Of a stretch of 64,000 nt of DNA, positions 48,315 to 63,041 are shown piece by piece. Numbering within the stretch: position 1 is the first letter of the stretch; each line of letters opens with the position of its first letter. Source of the stretch: Leptolyngbyaceae cyanobacterium JSC-12. GTDB taxonomy: Bacteria; Cyanobacteriota; Cyanobacteriia; Leptolyngbyales; Leptolyngbyaceae. The notes beneath the pieces are model-generated. The model was not told the origin of the DNA. It did not search any database and saw only the letters and a program-made list of their open reading frames with translations. The position numbers and the translations under genes were made by a program. The stretch spans positions 5,197,174 through 5,261,173 of the forward strand of contig CM001633.1 in NCBI GenBank assembly GCA_000309945.1, written 5' to 3'.

Positions 48315-51300
48315 CTAGCTACCTGAAATCGCTGGTAGTTTCACTTTTGCAATAGTTCCAGTTACAGTAGACGACTCAATACTGAATTCGCCATCATGAG
48401 CTTCTACGATTCGTTTAACAATCGCTAATCCCAAACCAGTTCCATTCACCTTTGTCGTGAAGAAGGGCTTGGTTAGCTTGGGCAAAACCTCTGCTGAAAT
48501 AGGTTCTCCACCATTGCAAACTTGAATCCAGACTTGATTATTGGTCGGTTTTTCTAGAGAGACAGTAATAGTCTCATTTTCAGAGATCGCTTCATAAGCA
48601 TTGGTGACCAGATTAATCAAGACCTGCTTCAGCTTATCTGGATCGGCTAATACTTTGATAACACAATCTGGCGCCACAAATGTGAAATGCTTGCCTGAAG
48701 CTGTTGGAATGGTTTGCAGGGTACTTAAAGTATCACGAACAAAGGGTTGGAGTTCTAATGGCGATCGCCGTAGTGTCTGAGGTCTAGAGTAGAGCAGGAT
48801 TTGATTCAACAAACGCTGCAAGCGATCGGCTTCATCTAATGCCAGAGCCAAGTATTCCTGAAATCGTTCAGACAGTTGCAGTTTCTTAAAAGAGTTTAAG
48901 CCCATCTTAATAGTTGTCAAAGGATTTCGCACCTCATGGACAATCATTGCAGCCAGTTCTCCAACCTCGGCTAATCGTTCCAGGGCTTTTTCTGCTTGCT
49001 TGAGCATCGTAATATCTGCTGCAACAGATAACAAACAAGGTTCACCTTCTAAGTCAATAATTTCGGCTGAAAATAACGCTGGGAAAACGTCGCCTGTTTT
49101 CTTACGAAATTGTATCTCCTGGTTAGAAATCGCCCCATGCGCTTGTAGAGCTTGCTTAATGGCATCTCTTTCTTCTGGCCTTGCCCAAATCCCTAAATCC
49201 AAAGCAGTTTGTCCGATCATTTCTTCACGAGAATACCCCAACATTCGCAGGCAGCTATCATTCACCTCGATGTAACATCCATCTTGAAGAGTACTAATCG
49301 TAATTGCATCCGGGGAAGAACGAAAGGCCGTTGAAAATTTTGCCTCAGAAATCTGTAAGGCTTCTTCTGCCTGTTTTCGCTCAATTTCAACAGCAGCACG
49401 AGCAGCAAAAATCTCCAATATTGTTTGATTTCGGGGTTCATCTTCCATGGGTTTATCATCCAGAACGGCAAGATGCCCTAAAACTTTTCCAGCCGAATCT
49501 CGCAAAGCCACACCCAAGTAACTCTCTGCCTGCCAGGTGGCTAATATTTCATCATGGGGAAATTGGGACTGAAGATTTGCTCGGTAAAACTGACAACTTC
49601 TGCCATTAATGACTCGTTCACATGGGGTATCTACCAAGTCGTACTCAAGATTTTCACCCAACTGATTGTTTTGCCAAAAAGCAAAGGTACGAACACGAGT
49701 TGCAGCATGATCAACACATTCGCTCACTAAGGCATACCGAACTTGCAGCGCTTGTGCCAGCGAACGAACTAGTGAACGGAAAAAGTCTTCTCCGGTAACT
49801 GATGCTGTTCCTTCGACAATGAGTCGCAAGGTTTGTTCAGAGCGTTGGCGTTCAATAATTTCAGTTTGAAGACGCTGATTGGTTTGTGTTAGCTCTGTTG
49901 TTCGTTCCTGCACGTGCAACTCTAACTGGTTATAAAGTTGGGCATTGTCGATAGAAATAGCAGCCTGGGTGGATAGAAACTGTAACACTTCCACACGATC
50001 GCGGGTAAATGCATCAATAGTAAGATTATTTTCCAAATATAAGATTCCAGACCGTTTACCTTGATAAATTAAAGGTGCACACAGAATTGACTTAGGCTGC
50101 TTGGCAACAATGTATGGGTCTTGAGAAAACCGATAGTCTTGAATAACTTGATTGAGCACCACACTTTCTTGAGTCCGGGCAACATAATGAACCACAGCCA
50201 ACGATAAGCGATCGCTAGCGACTTCACTATCCATTGGAATTCCTTGCAGGACTGAAGTTGTGAGTGGATCAACTCTGCCTTCTGCTTCAATTTGCCATCT
50301 TCCAGCAGTTTCTAAAATCAAACAACCATGCTCTGCTCCTGCACTTTCAATCAAAATCATCATTAGTTTTTCGAGCAGTTTATTCAGGACAATTTCACCA
50401 GAAAGTGCCTGGGAAACCTTCATTAAGGTGGCAAGATCGAGTCGTTCTGTGCTAGCACTGCTACTAGCAGTTGGAGAGGTGGATAGTGAGTGTGTAATGA
50501 TTAAGGTGCTCTGTTCTGAGAGACGATCAAAAAATTGAGGATACTGCTGATCAAGGTCATGAACTTTTGCCATTGCTCCCCAACGCACATAGCAGTAACG
50601 AGCATCTAGAAGATAAGCTTTGGCAATTTTAAGCTTACCCTTTGCCAAGTAAAACCTACCCGTCAATTCATTTGCCAGTGCTTCTTCATTGAGGTATTCA
50701 TGTATATGTGCTAGGTCGATCGCGCGATCATAGGCATCTGCAGCTTCAACATCCCGTCCTAACACTCGATAGCGTTCTGCTTCGACCAGGTAAAACTTAT
50801 GCAAGTAATTCATTGGTGCATGGTCTGCCCAATGCTTCATCCGCATCTGATTTGCATCAACTGTTTCTAAAATGCGAACTTGCTGCTCAGGTAATGCTGC
50901 TGAAAAAACAGCTAACTTCGCTAATGAATCATAAAAGTAGAAAACAGGAACAACTAATAATCCTACTGCTCCTTCCGACAATAAGTGATCAGTAGTAATT
51001 GCATACTTGGCTGCTTGAGTAAAATCTTGAAAGAGATAGCAAAGAATGAGTTTGTTTAAAGCCAAATGAAATTGGATATAAAGGTCATTAGTAGTAAGAA
51101 GAATTGGTGACTGTTCATTTTCGTTATAGCTCGTTCCCACTAGGTGGCTGGGACTGGCTGAAGGTTGAATCAAATTCAGCACAACCTGCCGATAGAGACC
51201 TGCAAGCTTGAGTGGTAAAACTTGTTTAAATCGAGCGATCTCATCAATATAATTGCTAATTTCCTGCTCAAGCTGAGCTAGTTCCTGACCTACCAAATAG

Positions 51301-54300
51301 GAATGATAGAAGCGAAATGCGATCGCAAAAGTAGCATATTCTAAATCACCTGTTTCCAACCCGCACTCATAAGCTTCCAGTAAAGGATTCAATGTTTCCT
51401 TCAAATGCTCTCGCCAGTGCTTGAGATACATATTCACAAGCAAAGACGTTTTGGGAATAAATTCTTTGGCATGGAGTTGAAGCTGTAGTGTTGTTGCAAG
51501 TTGGGCAAACTGGTATGCTGCGGTAATGTTGTTTTCAACTCCACATTGAATCATGCCATAGTCTGCATAACCAAATGCTGATCCTGGTGCATTACCATAA
51601 TTCACAGAAAGCTGGATCTTTTGAAAAACCATTAATTCCCAAAGCTCAGGAATCAGGAAATAAGTTGGTGTGCAAACGCTAGCAATCATTTGCATGGCTG
51701 CCAGTTTGCACGGGTCAGTCATTGGTGGAAGAGATCCTAAGTTTTCAATTGGAATTTTAGTAAGAATACGTTTAGTTTCAGCAAGTCCTTGATGAATATC
51801 CTGCTGACAAGGCTGTTCAGGCAACTGAATGCCTAATTGTTTGAGTACTTGCAGAGCCGTTTGAATCGCTTCCATCAACCGGTTTTGTGCAATATAAGCC
51901 CGGACTTTCACTAAGTAAACATTTGTTTGTTCAAGGATTGTATTTGTATGATGCAAAACTTCTGTAATGTGTTCTTCCATTTCCTCAAAATTACCAGCGA
52001 GGTAGGCGGCTTCAGCATTGGCTTCACACAATTTTAGAGTCAGTTCATAGGCTGTTTGCCAGCTATCACCAGGTAATAATGTTCTGCCGATATTTAAATA
52101 GTTCAATGCTGGTTCATAGGCGATCGCAGCCTTGGCTTTCTGTCCTGCAATGAAGTTAAGTTGAGCGAACTCTATTTTTTGGTCTGGCTCGGTTATCAAC
52201 TCTAAACCCATATTCAGATGTTCAATAATCTGAAAAATTGAATCTTCTAACAAATCCGGCCTGATAAACGTGAGCCAGAGTTGCCCAATCTTTAAATGCA
52301 GCCAGGGCTTATCCTTATCAGGAATGAATGAGTAGGCAACCTGCTGAATGCGATCATGGAGAAACTGATAGGTGATAGAACTGGCTAAAGAGCACCAATC
52401 ATTCATTAATTGTGGAGTTTGATTTAGGTGCAATATTAAGTATTTATAATCCTCTCCAATTGGTGCGATCATACTATGCTGAATTGCAAATTGTAAATCC
52501 GCTACAAGTTTAAGCGGCGATCGCTCACTTATAACAGCAAGCGTATATAAGTCAAATTGACTACCAATACAAGCTGCTATGGATAGAATTTGTTGGGTTT
52601 GGGCTGGAAGTGTTTGAATCCGATTGGCTACCAATTCTGCAATTGTATCGGGCAGTTGAGTTGATTGAATACGTGAAAGATTCCACTGCCACTGTCTACT
52701 TTCAGGGTTAAAATCAATCAGGTGTGTTTCATTCAAAACTCTCAAGAACTCACGAATGAAGAAGGGGTTACCTTCCGTTTTTTGTAGGATTAGGTCTGCT
52801 AACGGCAACGATTGCTCAGGCTCACATTGCAAGATGTCTTGCAACATGGCATCTACATCTGCCTTCTTCAGAGGAGACAGGGCAATTTGATGAACCGTTC
52901 CTCTAAGGCGAATGTCATCCAATTGTTGCAGCAATGGATGCACAGCAGTAACCTCATTGTCTCGATAAGCACCAATCAATAATAAATATCGGCAGTTGGA
53001 GGCAGTTATCCATTGCTGAATCAGGTGCACCGACGCACAGTCTACCCATTGCAAATCATCTAGAAATATCACCAGTGGATGGAAGTCTTGGGTGAAAGCG
53101 TGGATGAAGCGCTCAAACACCCAAAGAAAGCGATGTTGTGATTCAGTAGGGGGTAGTTCAAGGCTGCTGCTGGGCTGTTGACCGATAATGAATTCAACTT
53201 CTGGAATCACATCAATCATGACTTGACCATTATCACCCAAAGCTGCTAGCAGTCTTTGTTGCCAAGCCTGAATTTGGCTTTCTGATTCAGTGAGTAGTTG
53301 TTGAATGAGTGTTTGAAATGCCTGAATTAGACCAGAATAGGGAACATTTCGCTGTAACTGGTCGTATTTGCCAGTGATGAAATATCCCCGATGGTGAGTC
53401 ATTTGCTGATATAGTTCTTGGACTAAGCTTGTTTTGCCAATGCCAGGATAGCCAGACAACAACAGCATTTCACTCGTCCCTGATGTTGCAACTCGCTCAA
53501 AAGTTGCCAGCAATGTGGAAATCTCGGCTTTCCGTCCGTAGAGTTTTTGTGGTAAATAGAATTGCTCAGAAACATCGTGTCTACCAGGAGGAAAGTAGGC
53601 AATCGCGCTAGTAGTGCGTAGCTGATTCAAACACTCTTCCAAATCTGCTTTAATTCCCCAGGCACTCTGATACCGTTCTTCAGCATTTTTTGCCAGGAGT
53701 TTCATCACAATGTTGGAGACGGTCTTATTCGCTCCTATAAGATCATAAGGTGATATGGGTTGACGTGCAATGTGGCAATGAATGAGTTCCAGTGCTTTGT
53801 CGGTTTCAAACGGGAGGCGATCGCAAAGTAGATAATATAACGTTGCTCCCAGTGAGTAAAAATCTGTTCGATAATCCATTGCCCGGTTCATCCGTCCGGT
53901 TTGCTCTGGAGACATATACGCAAGAGTACCTTCCAGTAGATTGGAGCTACGAAAGGTTGGAGTTTCCTGAGATAAAATAGTGGCAATACCAAAGTCAATA
54001 ATTTTGACTTTTTGAGTGATAGGATTTAGAACAATATTTGACGGATTCAAGTCTTTATGGATGATATGGTGACGATGAACCTCATCCAAAATTGTAACAA
54101 TCTGAATAGCAAGAACTAAAAAATCTTCTAGATTGATCGTATGATGACTTAACCAAGATTGCAAAGACTCCGCACCAAAATCTTCTAAAACAATCGCAAG
54201 ATTTTGTGGATACGATTCTAACCCATAGGTTTTAATGACACCTTCTATCTTCAAATTAGAAAGAATGTCATATTCCATTTGAAATCTAGCAATTTCAGCA

Positions 54301-54434
54301 GGAGATGGATACTCCTGGCGCAACACTTTTAAAATGACGGGTACCTGATCCAAACTGCGTTGTGCTCGGTAGATAAGGGATCTAGAGCTTTCGTAAAGTT
54401 TTTCAAGTATGTGATACCCAGGAAGTATAACCAT
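48315..54434 (-). CDS. Giant Ser/Thr kinase - AAA ATPase - GAF - PAS - histidine kinase
   Basis: 2039 residues. A Ser/Thr kinase domain at ~6-270 has Lys36, HKDLNPSN (126-133) and DFG (147-149), so it looks active. An AAA_16-type NTPase has Walker A GYPGIGKTS (~328) and Walker B VIFLDDLQWVD. A long helical TPR-like region runs from ~600 to ~1350. One or two GAF domains follow (GAEHGCLILE, then FLSTQAAISIDNAQLYNQLE), then a PAS domain (FRSSPDAITISTLQDGCYIEV...). The histidine kinase at ~1820-2039 has His1833 in IVHEVRNPLTTIKMGL and GTGLGLAIVKRIV. This layout is known in filamentous cyanobacteria. It probably integrates several signals; the partner regulator is unknown. Confidence 0.95.
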   Translation of the reverse strand: MVILPGYHILEKLYESSRSLIYRAQRSLDQVPVILKVLRQEYPSPAEIARFQMEYDILSNLKIEGVIKTYGLESYPQNLAIVLEDFGAESLQSWLSHHTINLEDFLVLAIQIVTILDEVHRHHIIHKDLNPSNIVLNPITQKVKIIDFGIATILSQETPTFRSSNLLEGTLAYMSPEQTGRMNRAMDYRTDFYSLGATLYYLLCDRLPFETDKALELIHCHIARQPISPYDLIGANKTVSNIVMKLLAKNAEERYQSAWGIKADLEECLNQLRTTSAIAYFPPGRHDVSEQFYLPQKLYGRKAEISTLLATFERVATSGTSEMLLLSGYPGIGKTSLVQELYQQMTHHRGYFITGKYDQLQRNVPYSGLIQAFQTLIQQLLTESESQIQAWQQRLLAALGDNGQVMIDVIPEVEFIIGQQPSSSLELPPTESQHRFLWVFERFIHAFTQDFHPLVIFLDDLQWVDCASVHLIQQWITASNCRYLLLIGAYRDNEVTAVHPLLQQLDDIRLRGTVHQIALSPLKKADVDAMLQDILQCEPEQSLPLADLILQKTEGNPFFIREFLRVLNETHLIDFNPESRQWQWNLSRIQSTQLPDTIAELVANRIQTLPAQTQQILSIAACIGSQFDLYTLAVISERSPLKLVADLQFAIQHSMIAPIGEDYKYLILHLNQTPQLMNDWCSLASSITYQFLHDRIQQVAYSFIPDKDKPWLHLKIGQLWLTFIRPDLLEDSIFQIIEHLNMGLELITEPDQKIEFAQLNFIAGQKAKAAIAYEPALNYLNIGRTLLPGDSWQTAYELTLKLCEANAEAAYLAGNFEEMEEHITEVLHHTNTILEQTNVYLVKVRAYIAQNRLMEAIQTALQVLKQLGIQLPEQPCQQDIHQGLAETKRILTKIPIENLGSLPPMTDPCKLAAMQMIASVCTPTYFLIPELWELMVFQKIQLSVNYGNAPGSAFGYADYGMIQCGVENNITAAYQFAQLATTLQLQLHAKEFIPKTSLLVNMYLKHWREHLKETLNPLLEAYECGLETGDLEYATFAIAFRFYHSYLVGQELAQLEQEISNYIDEIARFKQVLPLKLAGLYRQVVLNLIQPSASPSHLVGTSYNENEQSPILLTTNDLYIQFHLALNKLILCYLFQDFTQAAKYAITTDHLLSEGAVGLLVVPVFYFYDSLAKLAVFSAALPEQQVRILETVDANQMRMKHWADHAPMNYLHKFYLVEAERYRVLGRDVEAADAYDRAIDLAHIHEYLNEEALANELTGRFYLAKGKLKIAKAYLLDARYCYVRWGAMAKVHDLDQQYPQFFDRLSEQSTLIITHSLSTSPTASSSASTERLDLATLMKVSQALSGEIVLNKLLEKLMMILIESAGAEHGCLILETAGRWQIEAEGRVDPLTTSVLQGIPMDSEVASDRLSLAVVHYVARTQESVVLNQVIQDYRFSQDPYIVAKQPKSILCAPLIYQGKRSGILYLENNLTIDAFTRDRVEVLQFLSTQAAISIDNAQLYNQLELHVQERTTELTQTNQRLQTEIIERQRSEQTLRLIVEGTASVTGEDFFRSLVRSLAQALQVRYALVSECVDHAATRVRTFAFWQNNQLGENLEYDLVDTPCERVINGRSCQFYRANLQSQFPHDEILATWQAESYLGVALRDSAGKVLGHLAVLDDKPMEDEPRNQTILEIFAARAAVEIERKQAEEALQISEAKFSTAFRSSPDAITISTLQDGCYIEVNDSCLRMLGYSREEMIGQTALDLGIWARPEERDAIKQALQAHGAISNQEIQFRKKTGDVFPALFSAEIIDLEGEPCLLSVAADITMLKQAEKALERLAEVGELAAMIVHEVRNPLTTIKMGLNSFKKLQLSERFQEYLALALDEADRLQRLLNQILLYSRPQTLRRSPLELQPFVRDTLSTLQTIPTASGKHFTFVAPDCVIKVLADPDKLKQVLINLVTNAYEAISENETITVSLEKPTNNQVWIQVCNGGEPISAEVLPKLTKPFFTTKVNGTGLGLAIVKRIVEAHDGEFSIESSTVTGTIAKVKLPAISGS

Positions 54435-54606: not shown

Positions 54607-55674
54607 TTAGATGCCTCTAAATCCCATTTTGGATTGAAGTGCTTGTTCAGTTGCGATCGGTTCTAGTCGAGGTATGGTATTCTGATTGGTACGATGCTGA
54701 ATACCAATTTGGCTAAAGAGTAAGCCCAGTAAAATAATGCCACCACCAATGTATTGGGCTTGGGTAGGAACTTCACCCAGAATTAAGTAAGCAGCTAGAA
54801 TACCGGAAATAGGTGCAAAAGAACCAATAATCGACGCTGTTGAAACAGAAGTTGTCCGCAATCCAGTAATCCAAAAAGATTGCCCAACAACTACGATAAT
54901 GACGCCATATAACAACATCCATTTCCAGAGGAACGGTGAGAGTACATCCATAAAGTGATCATTGCCGTAGAGCACTAGCGCGATGACAAAAAAGACACCT
55001 GTTCCGATTCCAGTTCGTGCAATGCTGTAGATTCCCAGGGGCACTTTGGAGAGACGCTGTTTGCCAATGATTGTGGAGATTGCTAACGCGATCGCTCCCA
55101 AAGCTGCCAGTAAGTTACCTCCGATCGGCAGCCTGCCCATGTGCATTAGAGGTTCCTGGGCAGGCTGAAGAACAAGCGTTAAGGCAATGCCCGCAAAGGC
55201 CGCGATCGCTCCTGTCACTTCCCACCGATTGACTCGATCATGCAATAGCCAAATCGACAATGCCATAGTTAATGGCGGTTCTAATCGACCAATCAGCACA
55301 ACATTCGTCACCGGGGTTAAAGCCAGAGCCTGAAAAATCAAACCTGGTGCGATCGCTCCCGATAACACTGCTACAATCCCTAAATTTCGCCAATCCCGCT
55401 GAGAAAGTTGCTTTAAGTTCTGTCGATTCCACTGGTTCCCATAAATCATCCCTAACACCACCAAGGCGCAGAGATTTCCTACAAATAAAACATTGCATAA
55501 AGAAATTGGATTTTGACCATCTACGAAATGGTGAGCACCAATTTCTGTAAGCTTACGTGTAACTGCACTCGACGCTCCAAAAATCAACACCGCTAACCAC
55601 AAGTAGACCTGTCCCGGAATTCGACGCACCAATCTGATTGATCTTGGCATTTGCTGGGATAAAGGAAGCATCAT
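54607..55674 (-). CDS. EamA/DMT-superfamily transporter
   Basis: A ten-helix drug/metabolite-type transporter. The two EamA repeats are visible: VYLWLAVLIFGASSAVTRKL...FQALALTPVTNVVLIGRLEP, and LLAALGAIALAISTIIGKQRL...TTSVSTASIIGSFAPISGILAAYLILGE. I start at the ATG at 55674 (MMLPLSQQM); an upstream GTG at 55779 would add an atypical 35-residue leader. The substrate is unknown. It is divergent from the NDH-2 gene. Confidence 0.88.
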   Translation of the reverse strand: MMLPLSQQMPRSIRLVRRIPGQVYLWLAVLIFGASSAVTRKLTEIGAHHFVDGQNPISLCNVLFVGNLCALVVLGMIYGNQWNRQNLKQLSQRDWRNLGIVAVLSGAIAPGLIFQALALTPVTNVVLIGRLEPPLTMALSIWLLHDRVNRWEVTGAIAAFAGIALTLVLQPAQEPLMHMGRLPIGGNLLAALGAIALAISTIIGKQRLSKVPLGIYSIARTGIGTGVFFVIALVLYGNDHFMDVLSPFLWKWMLLYGVIIVVVGQSFWITGLRTTSVSTASIIGSFAPISGILAAYLILGEVPTQAQYIGGGIILLGLLFSQIGIQHRTNQNTIPRLEPIATEQALQSKMGFRGI

Positions 55675-55880
55675 AAACAACTTTATGGCTGACGTAAAGA
55701 GCGCAATATTAAATTTAATCGTATGGAGATAATCTGAGTTTTTGCTAAGAAACAGCTTAAGGATTTGTGGCGCAATCACTCAAACTTCTCAGCAAATGCT
55801 TAACACTCAATCATCTATTAGCCCAGTCTGGGCATGATACTGATGGCAGGTTTGCATGTTCTATTACAGTTGCTTGACCT

Positions 55881-57308
55881 ATGCACCAGACATCCAATCC
55901 AACTGTCATTGTAGGTGGTGGTTTCGTGGGGTTATTTACCGCTCTACATCTCAGTCGCCAGAATTACCAGCGTCCTGTAATTTTAATTGAGCCACACGAT
56001 CGCTTCAGTTTCAAACCACTCTTGTATGAATTGCTCAGTGGTGAGTTGCATGTTCAGCAAGTCCATCCACGCTATATTGACCTGCTATCCAACAGTCATG
56101 TCACACTTGTGCAAGACAAAGTTCAGTCCATTAATCTTCCGCAACGGCAAGTCGTTCTTGCGTCCGGGAAGCATTATGAGTATGGCAATTTAGTACTGGC
56201 ATTGGGTAGCAAAACTGCTTACTTGAATACGCCCGGAGCTGTCGAGTATACCATGCCACTAACATCTGGAACTGAAGCGATCGCTCTTCGAGATCATTTG
56301 AAATATTGTTTGCACTCAGCTGCTCAAACTCTAGATGCTGAACGGCGGCGCCTCTTATTGACGGTCGCCATTATTGGGGCGGGACCTGCTGGCATTGAAC
56401 TTGCTTGTACACTGGGTGACTTGTTGCCGCTCTGGTACGAGGATCTGGGTGGAGATGGAGATGAGGTGCGAGTCGTGCTGTTTAATCGCAGTCGTGAACT
56501 ACTGAAAGGAGATATTAATAGCCGATTACGTTGTCGGGTACAGCGATCTCTACGGCAGCGGGCAGTTCCAGTCGAACTCGTGTTTGATGCAACCGTAAAA
56601 GCAATACAGCCAGATGCCGTTGAATACGAACAGCATGAAGTGCTCCATTCTTTGAAAGCTGGCACCATCGCCTGGACAGCAGGAACCGCTCCACATCCAT
56701 TGTTGATGAATTTACCCGTTGCCCCAGAACACCGCGATCGCCGGGGTCGGCTCCTGGTAACCCCAACCCTGCAATTGCCAGACTTTCCAGACGTTTTTGC
56801 TGCTGGCGATTGCGCCACTCCAGATGCGAATCCTCAACCCCCAACTGCCCAAGTTGCCTATCAGCAGGGCAAAGCAATCGCCCATAACTTGCAAGCGATC
56901 GCAACCAACAACCCCCCCCTCCCCGTGATCATTCACTTACGCGGCACCTTAATGAAATTAGGACTCAACGAAGGTGTTGCCAATCTATTCAATAAGGTTG
57001 AAATCAAAGGGCAACCAGGACATTTGATTCGAGAAGCCACCTATCTGGAACTGCTCCCTTCTCCCATTCACAACGCCAAAATCACTGCTGACTGGCTAAC
57101 TGATGAACTCTTCCAGCGGCATCGCCCCTTCAGCTATCAACGCCTCGGACAAACCCCGTGGTTGTCAGGTATTGCCACCATTGCTGCCGGACTTGTACTA
57201 GCGACTCCTCTAGCGTGGCGTGCTGCTCAACCCACCCAATTTCACCAAACCCTCAGTTGGACAGGCGTTCCCACTTTACTCGATCGCATCACGCCTCCAT
57301 CTAAGTAG
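55881..57308 (+). CDS. Type II NADH dehydrogenase-like FAD oxidoreductase
   Basis: A two-dinucleotide-domain flavoprotein of 475 residues. The FAD motif is VIVGGGFVGLFTALHLSRQN, the NAD motif VAIIGAGPAGIELACTLGDL and the second FAD motif DVFAAGDCATPD. C-terminal to this is an amphipathic/hydrophobic segment (WLSGIATIAAGLVLATPLAW) that probably docks the protein to the membrane, as in NDH-2. It transfers electrons from NAD(P)H to quinone. It is followed by a DoxX-like protein and a GMC oxidoreductase on the same strand. Confidence 0.9.
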   Translation: MHQTSNPTVIVGGGFVGLFTALHLSRQNYQRPVILIEPHDRFSFKPLLYELLSGELHVQQVHPRYIDLLSNSHVTLVQDKVQSINLPQRQVVLASGKHYEYGNLVLALGSKTAYLNTPGAVEYTMPLTSGTEAIALRDHLKYCLHSAAQTLDAERRRLLLTVAIIGAGPAGIELACTLGDLLPLWYEDLGGDGDEVRVVLFNRSRELLKGDINSRLRCRVQRSLRQRAVPVELVFDATVKAIQPDAVEYEQHEVLHSLKAGTIAWTAGTAPHPLLMNLPVAPEHRDRRGRLLVTPTLQLPDFPDVFAAGDCATPDANPQPPTAQVAYQQGKAIAHNLQAIATNNPPLPVIIHLRGTLMKLGLNEGVANLFNKVEIKGQPGHLIREATYLELLPSPIHNAKITADWLTDELFQRHRPFSYQRLGQTPWLSGIATIAAGLVLATPLAWRAAQPTQFHQTLSWTGVPTLLDRITPPSK

Positions 57309-57434
57309 ATGCTACGAAAGAACTGAGTCATTGATCATTGATTCCAGCAGGAGTCAGAACTACCTCTTTTCTATTCCTCATTCTCTATTTCCCATTCTCC
57401 ATTCTTCACTGATTCAACAAAGGACTATGCGACA

Positions 57435-57944
57435 ATGAAATACTTTCTCAACCTCAGAAACGCTATTACAGTTAACCGCATCACAATGGGACTGTTCTTC
57501 TTTTTGTCAGGGATTGCGAATTATCTCAACTTTGCAATTCCAAATGGATTTTATCAAACAGTGCTGACTCAAAAACTGCAACTCTGGGGACCATTTCCCG
57601 CCGGATGGGAAGGGGTTGGACCACTACCAGCATTAATCGCAGTTCCTTATGCCTGGCTTTTGCCCCTAGCAGAAATTGTATTAGGAGCCTTATTTACCCT
57701 CAACTATTGGGTTCGGTGGACAGGGTTATTATTAATTTTGATGACTTTTAGCATTATTTTGGCATTCGGCATTGTTCCTGCTGGGAGCCTTTTTCCTAAT
57801 GCAGCTGAAAGCTTCAACAAAAATATTATGTTTATGACATTGATTTGGGTTTGTATTGCTTACGAAGCCCATGAAAAGAAAATGAGTCGCCGTAAATCTA
57901 CAGCTATGGAGTATTCATTAACTACATCCAGTAATGATCAATAA
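57435..57944 (+). CDS. DoxX-like integral membrane protein
   Basis: The 169-residue protein has about four membrane helices (TMGLFFFLSGIANYLNF, YAWLLPLAEIVLGALF, GLLLILMTFSIILAFGI, NIMFMTLIWVCIAYEAH). The layout resembles the DoxX/DoxD quinone-linked family. It stands between NDH-2 and a GMC dehydrogenase, with only 18 bp to the latter, so a quinone-linked role is likely. Family placement is tentative. Confidence 0.72.
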   Translation: MKYFLNLRNAITVNRITMGLFFFLSGIANYLNFAIPNGFYQTVLTQKLQLWGPFPAGWEGVGPLPALIAVPYAWLLPLAEIVLGALFTLNYWVRWTGLLLILMTFSIILAFGIVPAGSLFPNAAESFNKNIMFMTLIWVCIAYEAHEKKMSRRKSTAMEYSLTTSSNDQ

Positions 57945-57962
57945 AAATGAAAGGTAAAAACC

Positions 57963-59519
57963 ATGCAAACAAGTTACTATGATTTGATCATCATTGGAAC
58001 AGGTGCTGGCGGTGGCACGTTAGCATACCACTTGGCACCAACTGGAAAAAAAATTTTGATTCTTGAGCGAGGGTCTTTCTTACCGAAAGAAAAAGCTAAT
58101 TGGGATACAGTCGAAGTTGTGCAAAAAGACCGCTATCATACTACTGAAACCTGGTATGCCAGTGATGGGCGGACAATTCATCCAGGCATCAGCTATTTTG
58201 TTGGTGGGAATACTAAAGTTTATGGCGGAGCCTTATTTCGCTGGCGTGAACAAGACTTTGAGCGTGTGATTCATAAAGGCGGAATTTCACCAGAATGGCA
58301 ACTCAAGTATCAGGATTTTGAACCGTATTACACCCAAGCCGAAAAGCTTTATGAAGTGCATGGTAAGCGAGCAATGGATCCAACAGAGCCGCTTGCCAGT
58401 GAAGAATATTCCTATCCTCCAATTACGCACGAACCTCGTATTCAAGAAATTCATGATGCTCTCAAGCATCAGGGTTTGCATCCATTTTATTTACCGCTAG
58501 CAATTAAGCTAAATGAGGTGAACCGACGGTTGAGTACCTGTATTCGGTGTGATACTTGTGATGGATTTCCGTGCTTAGTTGATGCAAAGGCAGATGCCGA
58601 TGTAAATTGTGTACGTCCAGTAGAGCAATTTAACAATGTTACTCTGATTACAGACGCAAGAGTACAACGACTACTCACCAGTGCATCAGGTCGGGAGGTG
58701 ACAGCGGTTGAAGCTGAGATTCATGGAAGTTTGCGTCAGTTTTCTGGTGATATTGTGGTGGTTGCATGTGGGGCAATTAATTCAGCCGCGTTGTTATTAC
58801 GTTCTGCAAATGATCAACACCCAACTGGTTTGGCAAACCGTTCTGATCAGGTGGGTCGTAATTTGATGAAGCATCAGAATGGAGCCATCATTGGCATAAG
58901 TTTAAAGCCAAATCCGACGATATTTCAAAAAACGATGGCGATTAATGATTTTTATTGGGGAGAAGAGGGCTTTAATTACCCTATGGGGCATGTGCAACTT
59001 CTGGGTAAAGTGAATGCTGACATGATTGCTGCTGAATCTCCTGCAATCGCAGGTATTTCATTTCAAGATCAAGAAGTATTCACTTCAATGGCAAACCACT
59101 CGGTAGATTGGTGGCTTACCGCTGAAGATCTGCCTGATCCCAATAATCGAGTAACCTTGAAAAATGGCTCGGTTCAACTCACCTATACCGAAAACAACAC
59201 AGAAGCGTACAATCGACTTTTACATCGCTGGACTGGTATTTTGAAAACAATTCACTGCGGAGAACGAATCATTCCCTGCTCATTTTATTTTAAGAAAAAG
59301 CTGCCCTTGCAAGGGGTTGCTCATCAGTGTGGTACATGCCGATTTGGTGATGATCCTGCCGCATCCGTCTTAGATCTAAACTGTCGCACCCATGATGTTG
59401 ACAATCTTTATGTAGTTGATGGTAGTTTTTTCCGCTCCAGCGCGGCGGTGAATCCCACATTGACAATCATTGCGAATGCGCTGCGAGTTGGGGACCACTT
59501 AATCGAACGGATGAAGTAA
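57963..59519 (+). CDS. GMC-family oxidoreductase
   Basis: A flavin alcohol/sugar dehydrogenase of the glucose-methanol-choline family with 518 residues. The FAD motif is LIIIGTGAGGGTLAYHLAP, YFVGGNTKVYGGALFRW is the flavin-loop motif and VVACGAINSAALLLRS the middle signature. The catalytic HQCGTCRFGDDPAASV and VVDGSFFRSSAAVNPTLTI close the active site. The cluster CIRCDTCDGFPC (~182) holds four Cys and is unusual for simple GMC oxidases. It follows NDH-2 and DoxX-like genes, which suggests it feeds electrons into the quinone pool. Confidence 0.9.
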   Translation: MQTSYYDLIIIGTGAGGGTLAYHLAPTGKKILILERGSFLPKEKANWDTVEVVQKDRYHTTETWYASDGRTIHPGISYFVGGNTKVYGGALFRWREQDFERVIHKGGISPEWQLKYQDFEPYYTQAEKLYEVHGKRAMDPTEPLASEEYSYPPITHEPRIQEIHDALKHQGLHPFYLPLAIKLNEVNRRLSTCIRCDTCDGFPCLVDAKADADVNCVRPVEQFNNVTLITDARVQRLLTSASGREVTAVEAEIHGSLRQFSGDIVVVACGAINSAALLLRSANDQHPTGLANRSDQVGRNLMKHQNGAIIGISLKPNPTIFQKTMAINDFYWGEEGFNYPMGHVQLLGKVNADMIAAESPAIAGISFQDQEVFTSMANHSVDWWLTAEDLPDPNNRVTLKNGSVQLTYTENNTEAYNRLLHRWTGILKTIHCGERIIPCSFYFKKKLPLQGVAHQCGTCRFGDDPAASVLDLNCRTHDVDNLYVVDGSFFRSSAAVNPTLTIIANALRVGDHLIERMK

Positions 59520-59616: not shown

Positions 59617-61077
59617 ATGCGACTGATTGACCCTCTGCGGCATACCCTTACTTCCCTTAGATGGTTCCGGCTTGATCCCGGATCTTTGCAATTTCGGCTG
59701 ACAGTCGAGATTGCTATTCTTTCGGTGTTGGGGTTGAGCAGCGTTGCCATCTGGACAAGCTGGAAAATGCAGCAACTCTTGATTACAACCCATACACAAA
59801 GCGTGGAATATATCGCCTCACGGTTTCCACGTGATGTGGAGCTTTACAGCGAGATGGTACCTCTACAGACTGGTTTGCAAAAAGCAATTGATAATGTCAA
59901 TGTGCCAGGTTTGGTGATTTGGGTGAAAAGTCCTGATGGCAAACAGGTGCTAGCACAATCGAGCCAGGCAACAGCATCGTTTACTGCAACGGATGAGTTG
60001 ATGTCATTGGCAGAGATGCCATTGAAGCCACAGGTTTATCAGGTGGGAACACGTTACTTGATTTTGTACCAGGGTAGTTTAACTATTCAAGGGAAAGTGC
60101 TTGGTACAGTCTATATGGCACAAGATGTGACAGAGGATCAACATCAGCTTACAGCAGCAATTCGGGGGCTGGCTGTGGTTTGCTTTCTGGTCACCTTGTT
60201 AACAATGGGGGCGATCGCATTCCGTATCCGTCGCTCTTTGCAGCCATTGGAAGACATGAGTCAGATGGCGGGAGCTATTTCTGCAGAGGATTTGAGTCAA
60301 GCTAAGTTGCAACTTAGCCATGCTCCGAGCGAAGTCAAAGCCTTAGCCCAAACGTTTAATCACATGCTGTTGCGGCTATCAGAGGCATGGGAACAGCAGC
60401 GTCAGTTTGTGAGTAATGTTTCCCACGAACTCCGCACACCGCTAACTGTGGTGTTGGGCTATTTGCATAGTGTGTTACGGCGTAGCAATCAGTTAAATGA
60501 TTATCAGAAAGAGGCACTGGAAACAGCAGCGGCTGAGGCAGAACGGACTGTTCACCTGCTTCAAGATTTGTTAGACCTGGCACGGGCGGATAGTGGCTAT
60601 ATGCACTATCATGTGGAGCCTGTGATGCTGAATGGACTCGTGGCAGAAGTTGCCAGTATGGCAGAAAAATTCAGTAATCGCTTTATTCAAGTTGAAGCTT
60701 CTAAACCTGTTGAAGCTCTTGCTGATCGCGATCGCTTGAAGCAGGTTTTGATCAATGTCGTTGATAATGCAGTGAAGTATTCAGAGCTTGACCAGGCAAT
60801 TGAGTTGAGGGTAGAGCGGCTTGAGCAACAGGCAATGATTCAGATTCGCGATCGTGGGGTTGGGATTCCCCTCCAGGATCAAAGCCGAATTTTTGAACGG
60901 TTTTACCGGGTAGATGAAGCGCGTGCTCGCTCAACTGGGGGACATGGCTTGGGATTGGCGATCGTAAAGACACTGGTGGAAGGCATGGGGGGAAGTGTTA
61001 CCGTGCGCTCTAAGCCTGGTGAGGGCAGTGTGTTCACAATTACACTACCCCTTGCACCAAACTCGATGATTTTCTAA
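59617..61077 (+). CDS. HAMP-containing sensor histidine kinase
   Basis: A membrane sensor of 486 residues. A first helix at ~33-55 precedes a periplasmic sensor domain (56-180). A second helix (~182-203) runs into a HAMP domain (RIRRSLQPLEDM). HisKA has His270 in NVSHELRTPLTVVLGYLHSV, and the ATPase has the N-box NVVDNAVKYSE and GGHGLGLAIVKTLVEGMGG. Its phosphotransfer partner is not adjacent; the same-strand OmpR-type regulator at 45.0 kb is the best candidate in the window. It lies 97 bp after the GMC gene. Confidence 0.92.
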   Translation: MRLIDPLRHTLTSLRWFRLDPGSLQFRLTVEIAILSVLGLSSVAIWTSWKMQQLLITTHTQSVEYIASRFPRDVELYSEMVPLQTGLQKAIDNVNVPGLVIWVKSPDGKQVLAQSSQATASFTATDELMSLAEMPLKPQVYQVGTRYLILYQGSLTIQGKVLGTVYMAQDVTEDQHQLTAAIRGLAVVCFLVTLLTMGAIAFRIRRSLQPLEDMSQMAGAISAEDLSQAKLQLSHAPSEVKALAQTFNHMLLRLSEAWEQQRQFVSNVSHELRTPLTVVLGYLHSVLRRSNQLNDYQKEALETAAAEAERTVHLLQDLLDLARADSGYMHYHVEPVMLNGLVAEVASMAEKFSNRFIQVEASKPVEALADRDRLKQVLINVVDNAVKYSELDQAIELRVERLEQQAMIQIRDRGVGIPLQDQSRIFERFYRVDEARARSTGGHGLGLAIVKTLVEGMGGSVTVRSKPGEGSVFTITLPLAPNSMIF

Positions 61078-61409: not shown

Positions 61410-62381
61410 ATGTCCCGACGCTTAGAACGACTGCTGCAAATTGATGCATTGATTCGCTCAAATCAGCGCCATACGGCTGATAGCTTGGCTTCAGAACTGG
61501 AAGTTAGCGAACGAACCATTCGGACTGATCTAGATTTTTTGCGCGATCGCTACCATGCTCCCTTGGAATTTACTCGGCAAAAGGGCTATCACTATACCGA
61601 CTTGGACTGGCGATTACCAACTATCTCTCTGAGCAAAGGAGAACTGTTTGCCCTGACCCTGGGAGCCAGGATGCTGGAAGCCTACGCGGGGTCACCCTAT
61701 GCATCTGATTTGCGCTCTGCGATCGCTCGATTAGCAGAAAGGTTGCCGGAACAAAGTTGGGTGGATTTACAACAGTTGGCAGACGATCGCATTCTGTTTC
61801 GAGGCGGAGCCGAAATTAATCTGAACCCGGACATCTGGCACAAGCTGGAGGATGCCTGCCAGATGCATAAAACGGTGCAGATGACTTATTACACCGCCAG
61901 CCGGGATGCCGTTTCAGATCGGGGACTCGACCCCTATGTACTGCATATTTACCGGGGTACAAATCCTTATGTCATCGGCTACTGCCATCAGCGTCAGGAG
62001 ATCCGCTGGTTCCGGGTAGATCGAATTAAACAGTTAGAGATTTTAGATCAAACCTTTGTACCCGACCCCACCTTTGATGCTAGGGATCACCTGGAGATGA
62101 TTTTTCAACATGAGGCGGGTGGAGTGCCCCAGCCTGTTGCCATCTGGTTTGATGTACCCACAGCCCCCTATATCCGGGAGCGGCGCTGGCATCCCACCCA
62201 GGAGATTCAGGAACACTCGGATGGCTCGCTGACGCTGCGGATGGTGGTGCGGGGGTTAAATGACCTGAAACGATGGGTGTTGGGCTATGGCAAGGGGGCG
62301 ATCGTGCGGGAGCCGCCGGAGCTGGTGCAATTGGTCAGAGATGAAGTGGAAGGAATGGGTCGGAATTATCAAGAGGATTAG
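61410..62381 (+). CDS. WYL-domain transcriptional regulator
   Basis: An N-terminal HTH (SLASELEVSERTIRTDLDFL) precedes a WYL-type ligand-binding domain at ~140-215 (VQMTYYTASRDAVSDRG, then PYVIGYCHQRQEIRWFRVDRI) and a C-terminal WCX extension. WYL regulators frequently control CRISPR-Cas and other defence operons. The gene stands 3 bp before cas6, so it is probably co-transcribed and a likely autoregulator of the cas genes. The ATG at 61410 starts the HTH directly. Confidence 0.9.
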   Translation: MSRRLERLLQIDALIRSNQRHTADSLASELEVSERTIRTDLDFLRDRYHAPLEFTRQKGYHYTDLDWRLPTISLSKGELFALTLGARMLEAYAGSPYASDLRSAIARLAERLPEQSWVDLQQLADDRILFRGGAEINLNPDIWHKLEDACQMHKTVQMTYYTASRDAVSDRGLDPYVLHIYRGTNPYVIGYCHQRQEIRWFRVDRIKQLEILDQTFVPDPTFDARDHLEMIFQHEAGGVPQPVAIWFDVPTAPYIRERRWHPTQEIQEHSDGSLTLRMVVRGLNDLKRWVLGYGKGAIVREPPELVQLVRDEVEGMGRNYQED

Positions 62382-62384
62382 TTT

Positions 62385-63041
62385 ATGGACTTTCTGGAAA
62401 TTCAATTTGCATTGCAGGGTAAAACATTGCCTGCGGATCATGGCTATGCACTTTACTCTGCCGTGAAAAAGCGGCTTCAAAAACAAGAAAATGAATCACT
62501 TCCTAATGACTTACCTACCGAGGTTCACCTCTGCACTATTTCGGGTGTTCCAGATCGAGCGGGGATGATTTATCTGAATCGAGGCTCTCGCTTTAGGTTG
62601 CGATGCCCATCAGACCAAATGCAGCTTTGGTACCGTTTTTTTCAAAATCAGGTTTTGGATATTCGAGGGCATCTGATTCGCTTGGTTCAACCGAGAATCA
62701 CATTGCCCGAAGCCAGTGATACGTTGGCTTCCAGGCTGGTGACATTTAAGTTAGAAGCCATCGATCATGCGGACGTACCGCGATATTTTCTAGAGTCATG
62801 CCAGAAGGGATTGGAACGCCTAGACATCAAAGGCAAGGCGTTTATTCCCAGCGATCATGATGGAGACTTGGCACGACGCACCTTACAGATAAGAAATAAG
62901 AAGGTTGTGGGTTATAGCGTGGTCGTCGAAGGGTTGAGTCAAGAGGATTCTCTAAAGCTGCAATGGTATGGATTAGGCGGTCGCCAACATTTTGGCTGTG
63001 GCTGGTTTTATCCAGCAAAGGAGGAAGCAAATGTCAGCTAA
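62385..63041 (+). CDS. cas6: Type I-MYXAN CRISPR-associated Cas6/Cmx6
   Basis: A 218-residue RAMP-family pre-crRNA endonuclease. The C-terminal glycine-rich motif GLGGRQHFGCGWF is diagnostic for the Cmx6 type, and the N-terminal MDFLEIQFALQG begins the first ferredoxin-like fold. It cleaves the repeat RNA to make crRNAs. It is preceded by a GAGGA ribosome site and overlaps the cas3 start by 11 bp, so the two are translationally linked. Confidence 0.9.
   Translation: MDFLEIQFALQGKTLPADHGYALYSAVKKRLQKQENESLPNDLPTEVHLCTISGVPDRAGMIYLNRGSRFRLRCPSDQMQLWYRFFQNQVLDIRGHLIRLVQPRITLPEASDTLASRLVTFKLEAIDHADVPRYFLESCQKGLERLDIKGKAFIPSDHDGDLARRTLQIRNKKVVGYSVVVEGLSQEDSLKLQWYGLGGRQHFGCGWFYPAKEEANVS

Follow-up and report, generated by a model that had tools for sequence, protein, structure and literature searches.

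The window analysed here is a 64,000-nucleotide stretch of Leptolyngbyaceae cyanobacterium JSC-12 (contig CM001633.1, GCA_000309945.1; the host genome is a single contig of 5.53 Mb and is 100% complete). Three tandem open reading frames lie on its + strand and encode an NDH-2-like flavoprotein, a small MauE/DoxX-like membrane protein and a GMC-fold dehydrogenase, with intergenic gaps of 126 bp and then 18 bp. We consider it reasonably probable that this trio acts as a local sugar-respiration module that feeds sugar-derived electrons into the plastoquinone pool, with the DoxX-like protein as a membrane partner. The trio is the local version of a larger and variable module. The tandem arrangement on one strand that was described in an earlier sequence-only reading of this DNA was confirmed, and its features in window coordinates are as follows.

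55881..57308, + strand: NDH-2-like FAD/NAD(P)H:quinone oxidoreductase, 475 residues (open reading frame, Pyr_redox_2, PDB sequence matches)
57150..57305, + strand: C-terminal hydrophobic tail of the NDH-2-like protein, with a motif like WRAxxPxQF-x7-TGxPxLLD (fixed-pattern search)
57435..57944, + strand: MauE/DoxX-clan small membrane protein, 169 residues (Pfam MauE, 3.7e-7)
57963..59519, + strand: GMC-fold FAD dehydrogenase, 518 residues (GMC_oxred_N and GMC_oxred_C, model)
58539..58574, + strand: Cys loop C193-x2-C196-x2-C199-x4-C204, putative Fe-S site (alignment)
59322..59324, + strand: His454, putative GMC catalytic His (133-row alignment)
59451..59453, + strand: Asn497, partner of the putative catalytic His (133-row alignment)

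The GMC protein scores above the Pfam cut-offs for both GMC_oxred_N (56.0 bits, cut-off 23) and GMC_oxred_C (73.6 bits, cut-off 24.6). Its closest named relative comes from a Leptolyngbyaceae cyanobacterium (86% identity), and homologues of 56-69% extend to metagenome-assembled genomes of Chloroflexi, Bacteroidetes and other groups. Among solved structures, its sequence is most similar to the FAD-dependent glucose dehydrogenase of Burkholderia cepacia (BcGDH, E 4.6e-32) and to fructose dehydrogenase (FDH). An AlphaFold2 model (pLDDT 83 overall, with 49 family sequences as input) was closest to the same two enzymes, both in Foldseek (TM ~0.8, with choline oxidase ranked next at 0.65) and in VIA (Z 34-42, next 32). 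The GMC fold is shared over its full length with BcGDH (PDB 6a2u/8grj) and Gluconobacter japonicus FDH (7w2j, 8jej) at an identity of ~23%. The first Rossmann strand comprises residues 4-11, which leaves no room for an N-terminal signal. Members of the GMC superfamily carry a catalytic His/Asn pair towards the C terminus, and the window enzyme holds this pair intact as His454/Asn497. Across 133 aligned GMC rows (82 named loci, 8 + 23 genome stretches, 19 plasmids and the window, with one double count because L038 and L145 are identical), both residues are retained in 117, one or both are altered in 15 and one row has a gap. A further alignment, A1, took 48 of a set of 80 named GMC loci. Two other identities were rejected: the mycofactocin dehydrogenase MftG (TIGR03970 from NCBIfam, 70.4 bits against a cut-off of 387.45) and choline dehydrogenase, for which the profile score was far under the cut-off.

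The motif CIRCDTCDGFPC forms residues 193-204 of the GMC protein. Its four cysteines are invariant in all 108 distinct sequences compared, including that of the window, at identities down to ~56%; the pattern CDTCDGFP was one of six seeds used to find the 80 named loci, while the loci of the class survey described below were not selected by it. The cluster had been described as lying outside the basic GMC fold. It is indeed extra to the minimal fold, but it is not unprecedented, as it sits at the place of the 3Fe-4S loop of BcGDH, and FDH also carries a 3Fe-4S cluster. C193, C199 and C204 align with Cys212, Cys218 and Cys222 of BcGDH, with the spacing off by one residue (C-x4-C against C-x3-C in BcGDH); C196 has no counterpart there, and Cys213 of BcGDH has none in the window enzyme. 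In BcGDH, the three aligned cysteines bind the 3Fe-4S cluster and Cys213 forms an inter-subunit disulfide (PMC6719666). In the window enzyme, the four-Cys loop might coordinate either a 4Fe-4S or a 3Fe-4S cluster. Distant GMC proteins of the phylum have the BcGDH spacing, C-x5-C-x3-C, and a further variant, C-x2-C-x2-C-x3-C, is present in locus L206 (labels of this kind are our own).

The motif is conserved among close sequences, but more distant members of the family do not all have it. Four cysteines are present in 106 of the 133 rows, three in eight and fewer in 19. The three-Cys relatives come from Alpha- and Betaproteobacteria and Streptomyces (L221, L224, L225, L231, L232 and L233) and from cyanobacteria (L226 and L229). 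Among 20 cyanobacterial loci of ~50-57% identity, which were picked by hand from the class-survey list and are not a random sample, eight have a four-Cys GMC and 12 have only GMCs without the Cys set; the plasmid relatives L237-L239 (~40% identity) also lack it. The Cys loop as a family-wide feature was rejected beyond close relatives, given these three-Cys, one-Cys and loop-less forms.

The first gene of the trio matches Pyr_redox_2 in Pfam (117 bits, E 1e-33). Its top sequence matches in the PDB are 4nwz/5kmq, which we take to be NDH-2 structures, YjlD, a non-electrogenic NADH:ubiquinone reductase and SAOUHSC_00878. Judged by these matches, the protein belongs to the NDH-2 family of flavoproteins with two dinucleotide-binding sites, with a predicted NAD(P)H:quinone activity. 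A Fischerella relative with 51% identity is annotated as ndbC, and the cyanobacterial type-2 NAD(P)H dehydrogenases NdbA, NdbB and NdbC belong to the same flavoprotein family; the window protein and its DoxX-linked relatives differ from them in the pairing with a MauE/DoxX protein and, in most cases, in a conserved C-terminal tail. In Synechocystis with glucose, NdbA goes up and NdbC goes down (PMC9175036).

The small membrane protein exceeds the Pfam cut-off for MauE (30.9 bits, cut-off 27) and falls under that for DoxX (20.7 bits, cut-off 23.6). No PDB match was found by sequence up to E 1, and the predicted structure was too poor to be of use (pLDDT 56). The thiosulfate:quinone oxidoreductase DoxDA and the mycobacterial SodA-DoxX-SseA complex are systems built around DoxX/MauE membrane proteins. 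The window protein resembles these in clan, size and partnership with a redox enzyme, but it represents another subfamily and is linked to NDH-2. A role as a haem ligand was rejected: haem binding is unlikely because none of the His or Cys residues is invariant in 13 sequences, although C140 is nearly so. A quinone-related or docking role may be suggested instead.

The NDH-2-like and DoxX-like proteins form the core pair of the system. In a survey of 242 genomes of the class, DoxX was found in 19 (E <= 1e-10), NDH-2 in 64 and GMC in 138 (E <= 1e-60). Of the 19 genomes with DoxX, 17 encode a member of the same NDH-2 family no more than ~1.1 kb away from it (14 tandem and three divergent); of the two exceptions, the contig of G105 ends at DoxX, and in G047 DoxX stands with EamA and without NDH-2. 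On a tree of 39 NDH-2 sequences, which omitted the split NDH-2 of L036, the DoxX-linked members group strongly together (none of 500 label shuffles gave so low a value), and supported branches force at least three changes. Neighbouring genes were compared between 18 DoxX-linked NDH-2 loci, with the window omitted, and 21 loci without DoxX; 20 of the NDH-2 stretches were chosen by hand. An EamA gene lies within 6.5 kb of NDH-2 in nine of the 18 and in none of the 21 (Fisher p 2e-4). The NDH-2 tail motif, searched as a fixed pattern, occurs in 13 of 18 full-length DoxX-linked proteins (that of L146 is one letter off). Among 21 proteins without DoxX it occurs in two, and these belong to a single genome, G127. 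As a separate observation, proteins with the electron-transfer domain DM13 are encoded beside NDH-2/DoxX in L153, L154, L155, L158 and L159, four of these five loci having a cellulose-synthase-like GT2 gene.

The sequence-only reading had made its proposal dependent on conservation of the trio in relatives, and such conservation was found. NDH-2, DoxX and GMC occur in the same order and on the same strand in eight loci: the window, L036, L101, L146, L147, L148, L149 and L151. Three of these have one split gene each, namely the GMC of L101 (8001-9541), the NDH-2 of L036 (5908-7316) and the GMC of L147 (from 10276, with L164). The last frame stops after ~226 residues near the end of its contig, and the remainder opens another contig, L164. 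The splits may reflect sequencing error, a frameshift or an insert or, for L147, the contig break. L037 has DoxX-GMC without NDH-2 in the stretch compared, with SDR, VOC, debranching enzyme and GH63 genes nearby, and L038 (identical to L145) has DoxX-GMC at a contig end; some of the relative stretches are short because their contigs end. The trio as a universal unit was rejected, as an SDR is the commoner companion among the 80 named GMC loci (17 of the glucose-1-dehydrogenase type and 41 of a second type). The proposed unit of three genes is supported as to its tandem and recurrent arrangement, but DoxX pairs first with NDH-2 and not with GMC, and several branches have a Cys loop with fewer cysteines or none at all.

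Other neighbours of the GMC genes often point to sugar metabolism. The same 80 loci include MIP in 19, a GH63/MGH1-like protein in 14, VOC in 12 and a debranching enzyme in four. Beside the NDH-2/DoxX pair, G6PDH and glucokinase are encoded in L152, L160, L161 and L162, all four genomes belonging to family f14; the last three of these loci also have GH63, and L160 and L161 additionally encode a Zn glucose dehydrogenase. On plasmids (19 records chosen by hand from 105 with a match), the order SDR-aquaporin-GMC-VOC-FAD oxidoreductase-debranching enzyme-glucosidase was found, and GMC neighbours there include SMP-30/gluconolactonase, GH15, gluconokinase and sorbosone dehydrogenase. A cassette of DoxX, cupin, SMP-30/gluconolactonase and VOC, seen on plasmids as well, recurs beside GMC in L224, L225, L231, L234, L247 and L248, its hosts being Alpha- and Betaproteobacteria and two cyanobacteria. 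A single DoxX family across all cassettes was rejected: the profile similarity in hhalign is weak (probability 8%, E 0.004), so the window DoxX and the cassette DoxX share a clan only. Some relatives fit the sugar context less well, namely a Priestia GMC with MFS transporters and an alpha-galactosidase, a Nostoc HK-01 GMC with an SDR only, and GMC relatives of ~39-45% identity beside sugar ABC transporters, Gfo/Idh/MocA oxidoreductases or an AGE epimerase.

A published cluster provides a counterpart for part of this context. In Synechococcus elongatus PCC 7942, the adjacent genes Synpcc7942_1571-1575, for an MIP channel (1571), a GMC protein (1572), a glucose 1-dehydrogenase (1573), a debranching enzyme (1574) and MalQ (1575), rise in the subjective night, with a log2 fold change of 3.5 for the GMC gene; the authors propose a path from glycogen to gluconate and suggest that the genes act in glycogen breakdown or in metabolism at night, the role of the GMC protein being left open (PMC11889915). 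Two 2.7 Mb genomes of one genus (L261 and L262) have MIP-GMC-SDR-GH63-debranching enzyme, which matches the S. elongatus cluster in gene families and order and is collinear with it. Their GMC protein has 59% identity to that of the window and carries the four-Cys loop. Judging by gene order and size, the S. elongatus GMC is probably the same protein. The window trio differs from this arrangement in having no adjacent MIP, SDR or glucosidase. Among the open-licence literature matches listed, no title concerned the NDH-2/DoxX/GMC trio or a GMC in cox operons.

A second recurrent context is that of terminal oxidases. In Trichormus variabilis and Nostoc edaphicum a GMC gene is flanked by coxBAC and cydAB. 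It follows cox genes in Lichenicola, lies beside cydAB on the opposite strand and with gluconokinase in Streptomyces, and directly precedes cox genes in Roseomonas, where the DoxX-cupin-SMP-30-VOC cassette is divergent. In 12 of the 20 hand-picked cyanobacterial loci, cox genes lie within 9 kb of GMC. The NDH-2 family was examined in 42 loci, 19 with a window-type DoxX and 23 without (one of the latter, L222, has another DoxX type nearby). An oxidase gene lies within 6.5 kb of NDH-2 in none of the 19 and in seven of the 23 (L115, L169, L172, L175, L176, L180 and L260), each of the seven having DUF2231-like genes, a pattern that would fit DoxX and DUF2231 replacing one another as small membrane partners of NDH-2. 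The order ctaB-NDH-2-cox was found among the NDH-2 loci, and L115 and L175 join NDH-2, coxBAC, ctaB and GMC. L115 also has MIP, a DUF2231 pair, SDR, a weak DoxX match and GH63, and L248 joins coxBAC, two GMCs, GH63, DoxX, VOC, SMP-30, cupin and SDR.

Many of the GMC proteins in this second context are altered. An oxidase gene lies no further than 1.5 kb away in 18 rows; of these, 14 show an altered His454 and/or Asn497 (four of them retain the His) and four are intact, whereas among the other 115 rows the pair is altered in one and a gap is present in one. The GMC paralogues beside coxBAC in L240-L244, L246, L248 and L254-L258 lack the Cys loop and have altered catalytic residue(s) in 12 of 12 cases. 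A GMC tree of 71 rows was built by a quick method with the loop columns removed and a midpoint root; in this tree the oxidase-linked L115, L227 and L230 retain four cysteines and the loop-less clade is nested among them. Loop loss appears as one large event plus Roseomonas, and an independent-pairs test had too few pairs (median p 1), so that oxidase linkage as the cause of the loss is suggestive only. The nested loop-less proteins are probably no longer sugar dehydrogenases, and a coxBAC-adjacent loop-less GMC is a probable non-catalytic companion of the oxidase. The window GMC is of the intact kind, unlike this altered branch.

Taken together, these contexts suggest the following scheme. The GMC protein would be a cytoplasmic FAD dehydrogenase that oxidizes an aldose or aldonate at FAD via H454/N497, the substrate most likely being glucose or gluconate freed from glycogen or glucosides, perhaps at night. 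Electrons would leave FAD via an Fe-S cluster on the C193/C196/C199/C204 loop and pass to the membrane; the electrons of BcGDH have been shown to go to the respiratory chain, and those of the window enzyme may do likewise. The NDH-2-like protein would oxidize NAD(P)H from companion sugar dehydrogenases (an SDR of the glucose-1-dehydrogenase type, G6PDH) and reduce plastoquinone, so that GMC and NDH-2 would both reduce this pool. The MauE/DoxX protein would be the membrane partner of NDH-2, perhaps offering a docking or quinone site that GMC also uses, and the three may associate physically. The trio would work like the BcGDH/FDH complexes but is not of their type, because no hitchhiker (gamma) subunit was found in the genome (PF13618, 0 matches, with two of 14 control genomes positive) and no multihaem cytochrome c (beta) subunit among the scanned neighbours (EamA, NDH-2, MauE/DoxX, a histidine kinase, a WYL regulator and Cas6; the rest of the genome was not searched). 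The window enzyme also has Val86 in place of His105, the covalent FAD site of BcGDH. Of the sugar- or alcohol-driven electron input to the quinone pool first proposed, the sugar-driven form is supported by the sugar and oxidase genes in relatives, the oxidase linkage of the GMC and NDH-2 families and the published night-induced cluster; the substrate, the Fe-S cluster, the physical complex and the route to quinone are the parts that we infer.

Several observations weigh against the sugar-respiration reading. Within JSC-12 itself, the GMC gene is ~85 and ~105 kb away from the GH63 homologues and ~260 kb from the best SDR. No NDH-2 or DoxX was found near the GMC of L261 and L262 in the 17 kb compared, and within the stretches compared for the 80 named loci a window-type DoxX occurs in four and NDH-2 in three. 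The association with DoxX is also modest for individual gene classes within 6.5 kb of NDH-2: GMC in 7/18 DoxX-linked loci against 2/21 without DoxX (p 0.055), sugar genes excluding GMC in 8/18 against 4/21 (p 0.16) and GH63/MIP/VOC/GDE in 6/18 against 3/21 (p 0.26). GMC or any sugar gene taken together gives 12/18 against 4/21 (p 0.004), but these p values are optimistic because some of the counted families were picked from DoxX loci. As regards the loop, structure prediction around the motif, which had been proposed as a check, returned the FDH/BcGDH-like fold but modelled residues 200-209 at low confidence (pLDDT <50 in AlphaFold2). C199 is replaced by F or V in the eight three-Cys relatives, which retain C193, C196 and C204; six of these eight sit with a DoxX, and the Roseomonas GMC (L234) has one Cys only within the same DoxX-cupin-SMP-30-VOC cassette.

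The loop might instead bind Zn or form a redox disulfide, with FAD donating electrons directly, which would otherwise be compatible with a sugar-respiration module. The one extra Cys and one extra residue relative to BcGDH would suit this possibility, as would the loss in three-Cys forms of the residue aligned with the ligand Cys218 and the absence of the loop in some relatives. Nevertheless, we regard it as somewhat unlikely, given that the loop is located where BcGDH, one of the two closest solved structures, has its 3Fe-4S loop, and that the four cysteines are invariant among the close sequences; CxxCxxC is, moreover, typical of Fe-S sites.

Alternatively, NDH-2/DoxX could be a self-contained quinone reductase with which GMC is merely co-regulated, the GMC acceptor being ferredoxin, a soluble cytochrome or oxygen. 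This is consistent with the 11 of 18 DoxX-linked NDH-2 loci that have no GMC within 6.5 kb and with the absence of NDH-2/DoxX near most GMC loci, and an FNR-type 2Fe-2S reductase is encoded two genes upstream of GMC in L042, with a homologue further upstream in L041. The retention of the trio order in eight loci and the meeting of the same GMC and NDH-2 families in the oxidase loci L115 and L175 speak against this, and we consider a self-contained pair unlikely. Still more doubtful is a redox-stress unit in which DoxX and NDH-2 hold quinones reduced like FSP1 and GMC detoxifies an alcohol- or aldehyde-related metabolite: mycobacterial DoxX proteins are linked to oxidative stress, the NDH-2-like protein has weak sequence similarity to FSP1 (E 1e-7) and VOC and cupin genes are among the neighbours, but glucosidase, gluconolactonase, glucokinase, G6PDH and oxidase neighbours point to carbohydrate respiration, as does the induction alongside glycogen breakdown in S. 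elongatus (PMC11889915).

The sugar-respiration reading of the trio can be extended, tentatively, to a modular system in Cyanobacteria, Alpha- and Betaproteobacteria and Actinomycetota in which an Fe-S GMC would work with exchangeable partner sets (NDH-2 with DoxX; NDH-2 with a DUF2231 pair and coxBAC; or DoxX with gluconolactonase). One cyanobacterial GMC branch might then have been captured by coxBAC operons, having lost its loop and altered its catalytic residue(s) to become a non-catalytic, oxidase-associated protein. The part formed by GMC, MIP and glucose dehydrogenase already has its published night-induced counterpart in S. elongatus.

The genes around the trio in the window are listed below.

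54607..55779, - strand: EamA-family (DMT) transporter, divergent to the trio (Pfam EamA)
59617..61077, + strand: sensor histidine kinase downstream of GMC (open reading frame and Pfam)
61410-63041: WYL/WCX regulator, then Cas6 (Pfam scan of neighbours)

The histidine kinase is probably outside the module, since its position directly behind GMC recurs only in the nearest relative, L036. A CRISPR-Cas locus may begin at the end of the window, as a WYL/WCX regulator is followed there by Cas6. A consensus scan found no sigma-70-like site on the + strand between 55.5 and 60 kb; overall, promoter-like sites (10 against 11.7 +/- 4.2 in shuffles) and terminator-like sites (9 against 7.3 +/- 2.6) are at chance level, which speaks neither for nor against an operon. 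Further upstream, an open reading frame of 2039 residues (48315-54434, - strand) appears by eye to contain kinase, ATPase, GAF, PAS and histidine-kinase parts.

If the proposed role is correct, many cyanobacteria and soil bacteria would own a quinone-linked sugar oxidation beside glycolysis and complex I, and the cyanobacterial route would perhaps serve the burning of glycogen at night. The poorly understood membrane families MauE/DoxX and DUF2231 would gain a testable function as partners of NDH-2. The GMC protein would offer an FDH/GDH-type catalytic subunit that comes without haem and hitchhiker partners, which would be relevant to glucose electrodes. In the coxBAC-linked GMC, whose catalytic residues are altered, an enzyme would have evolved into a possible partner of the oxidase.

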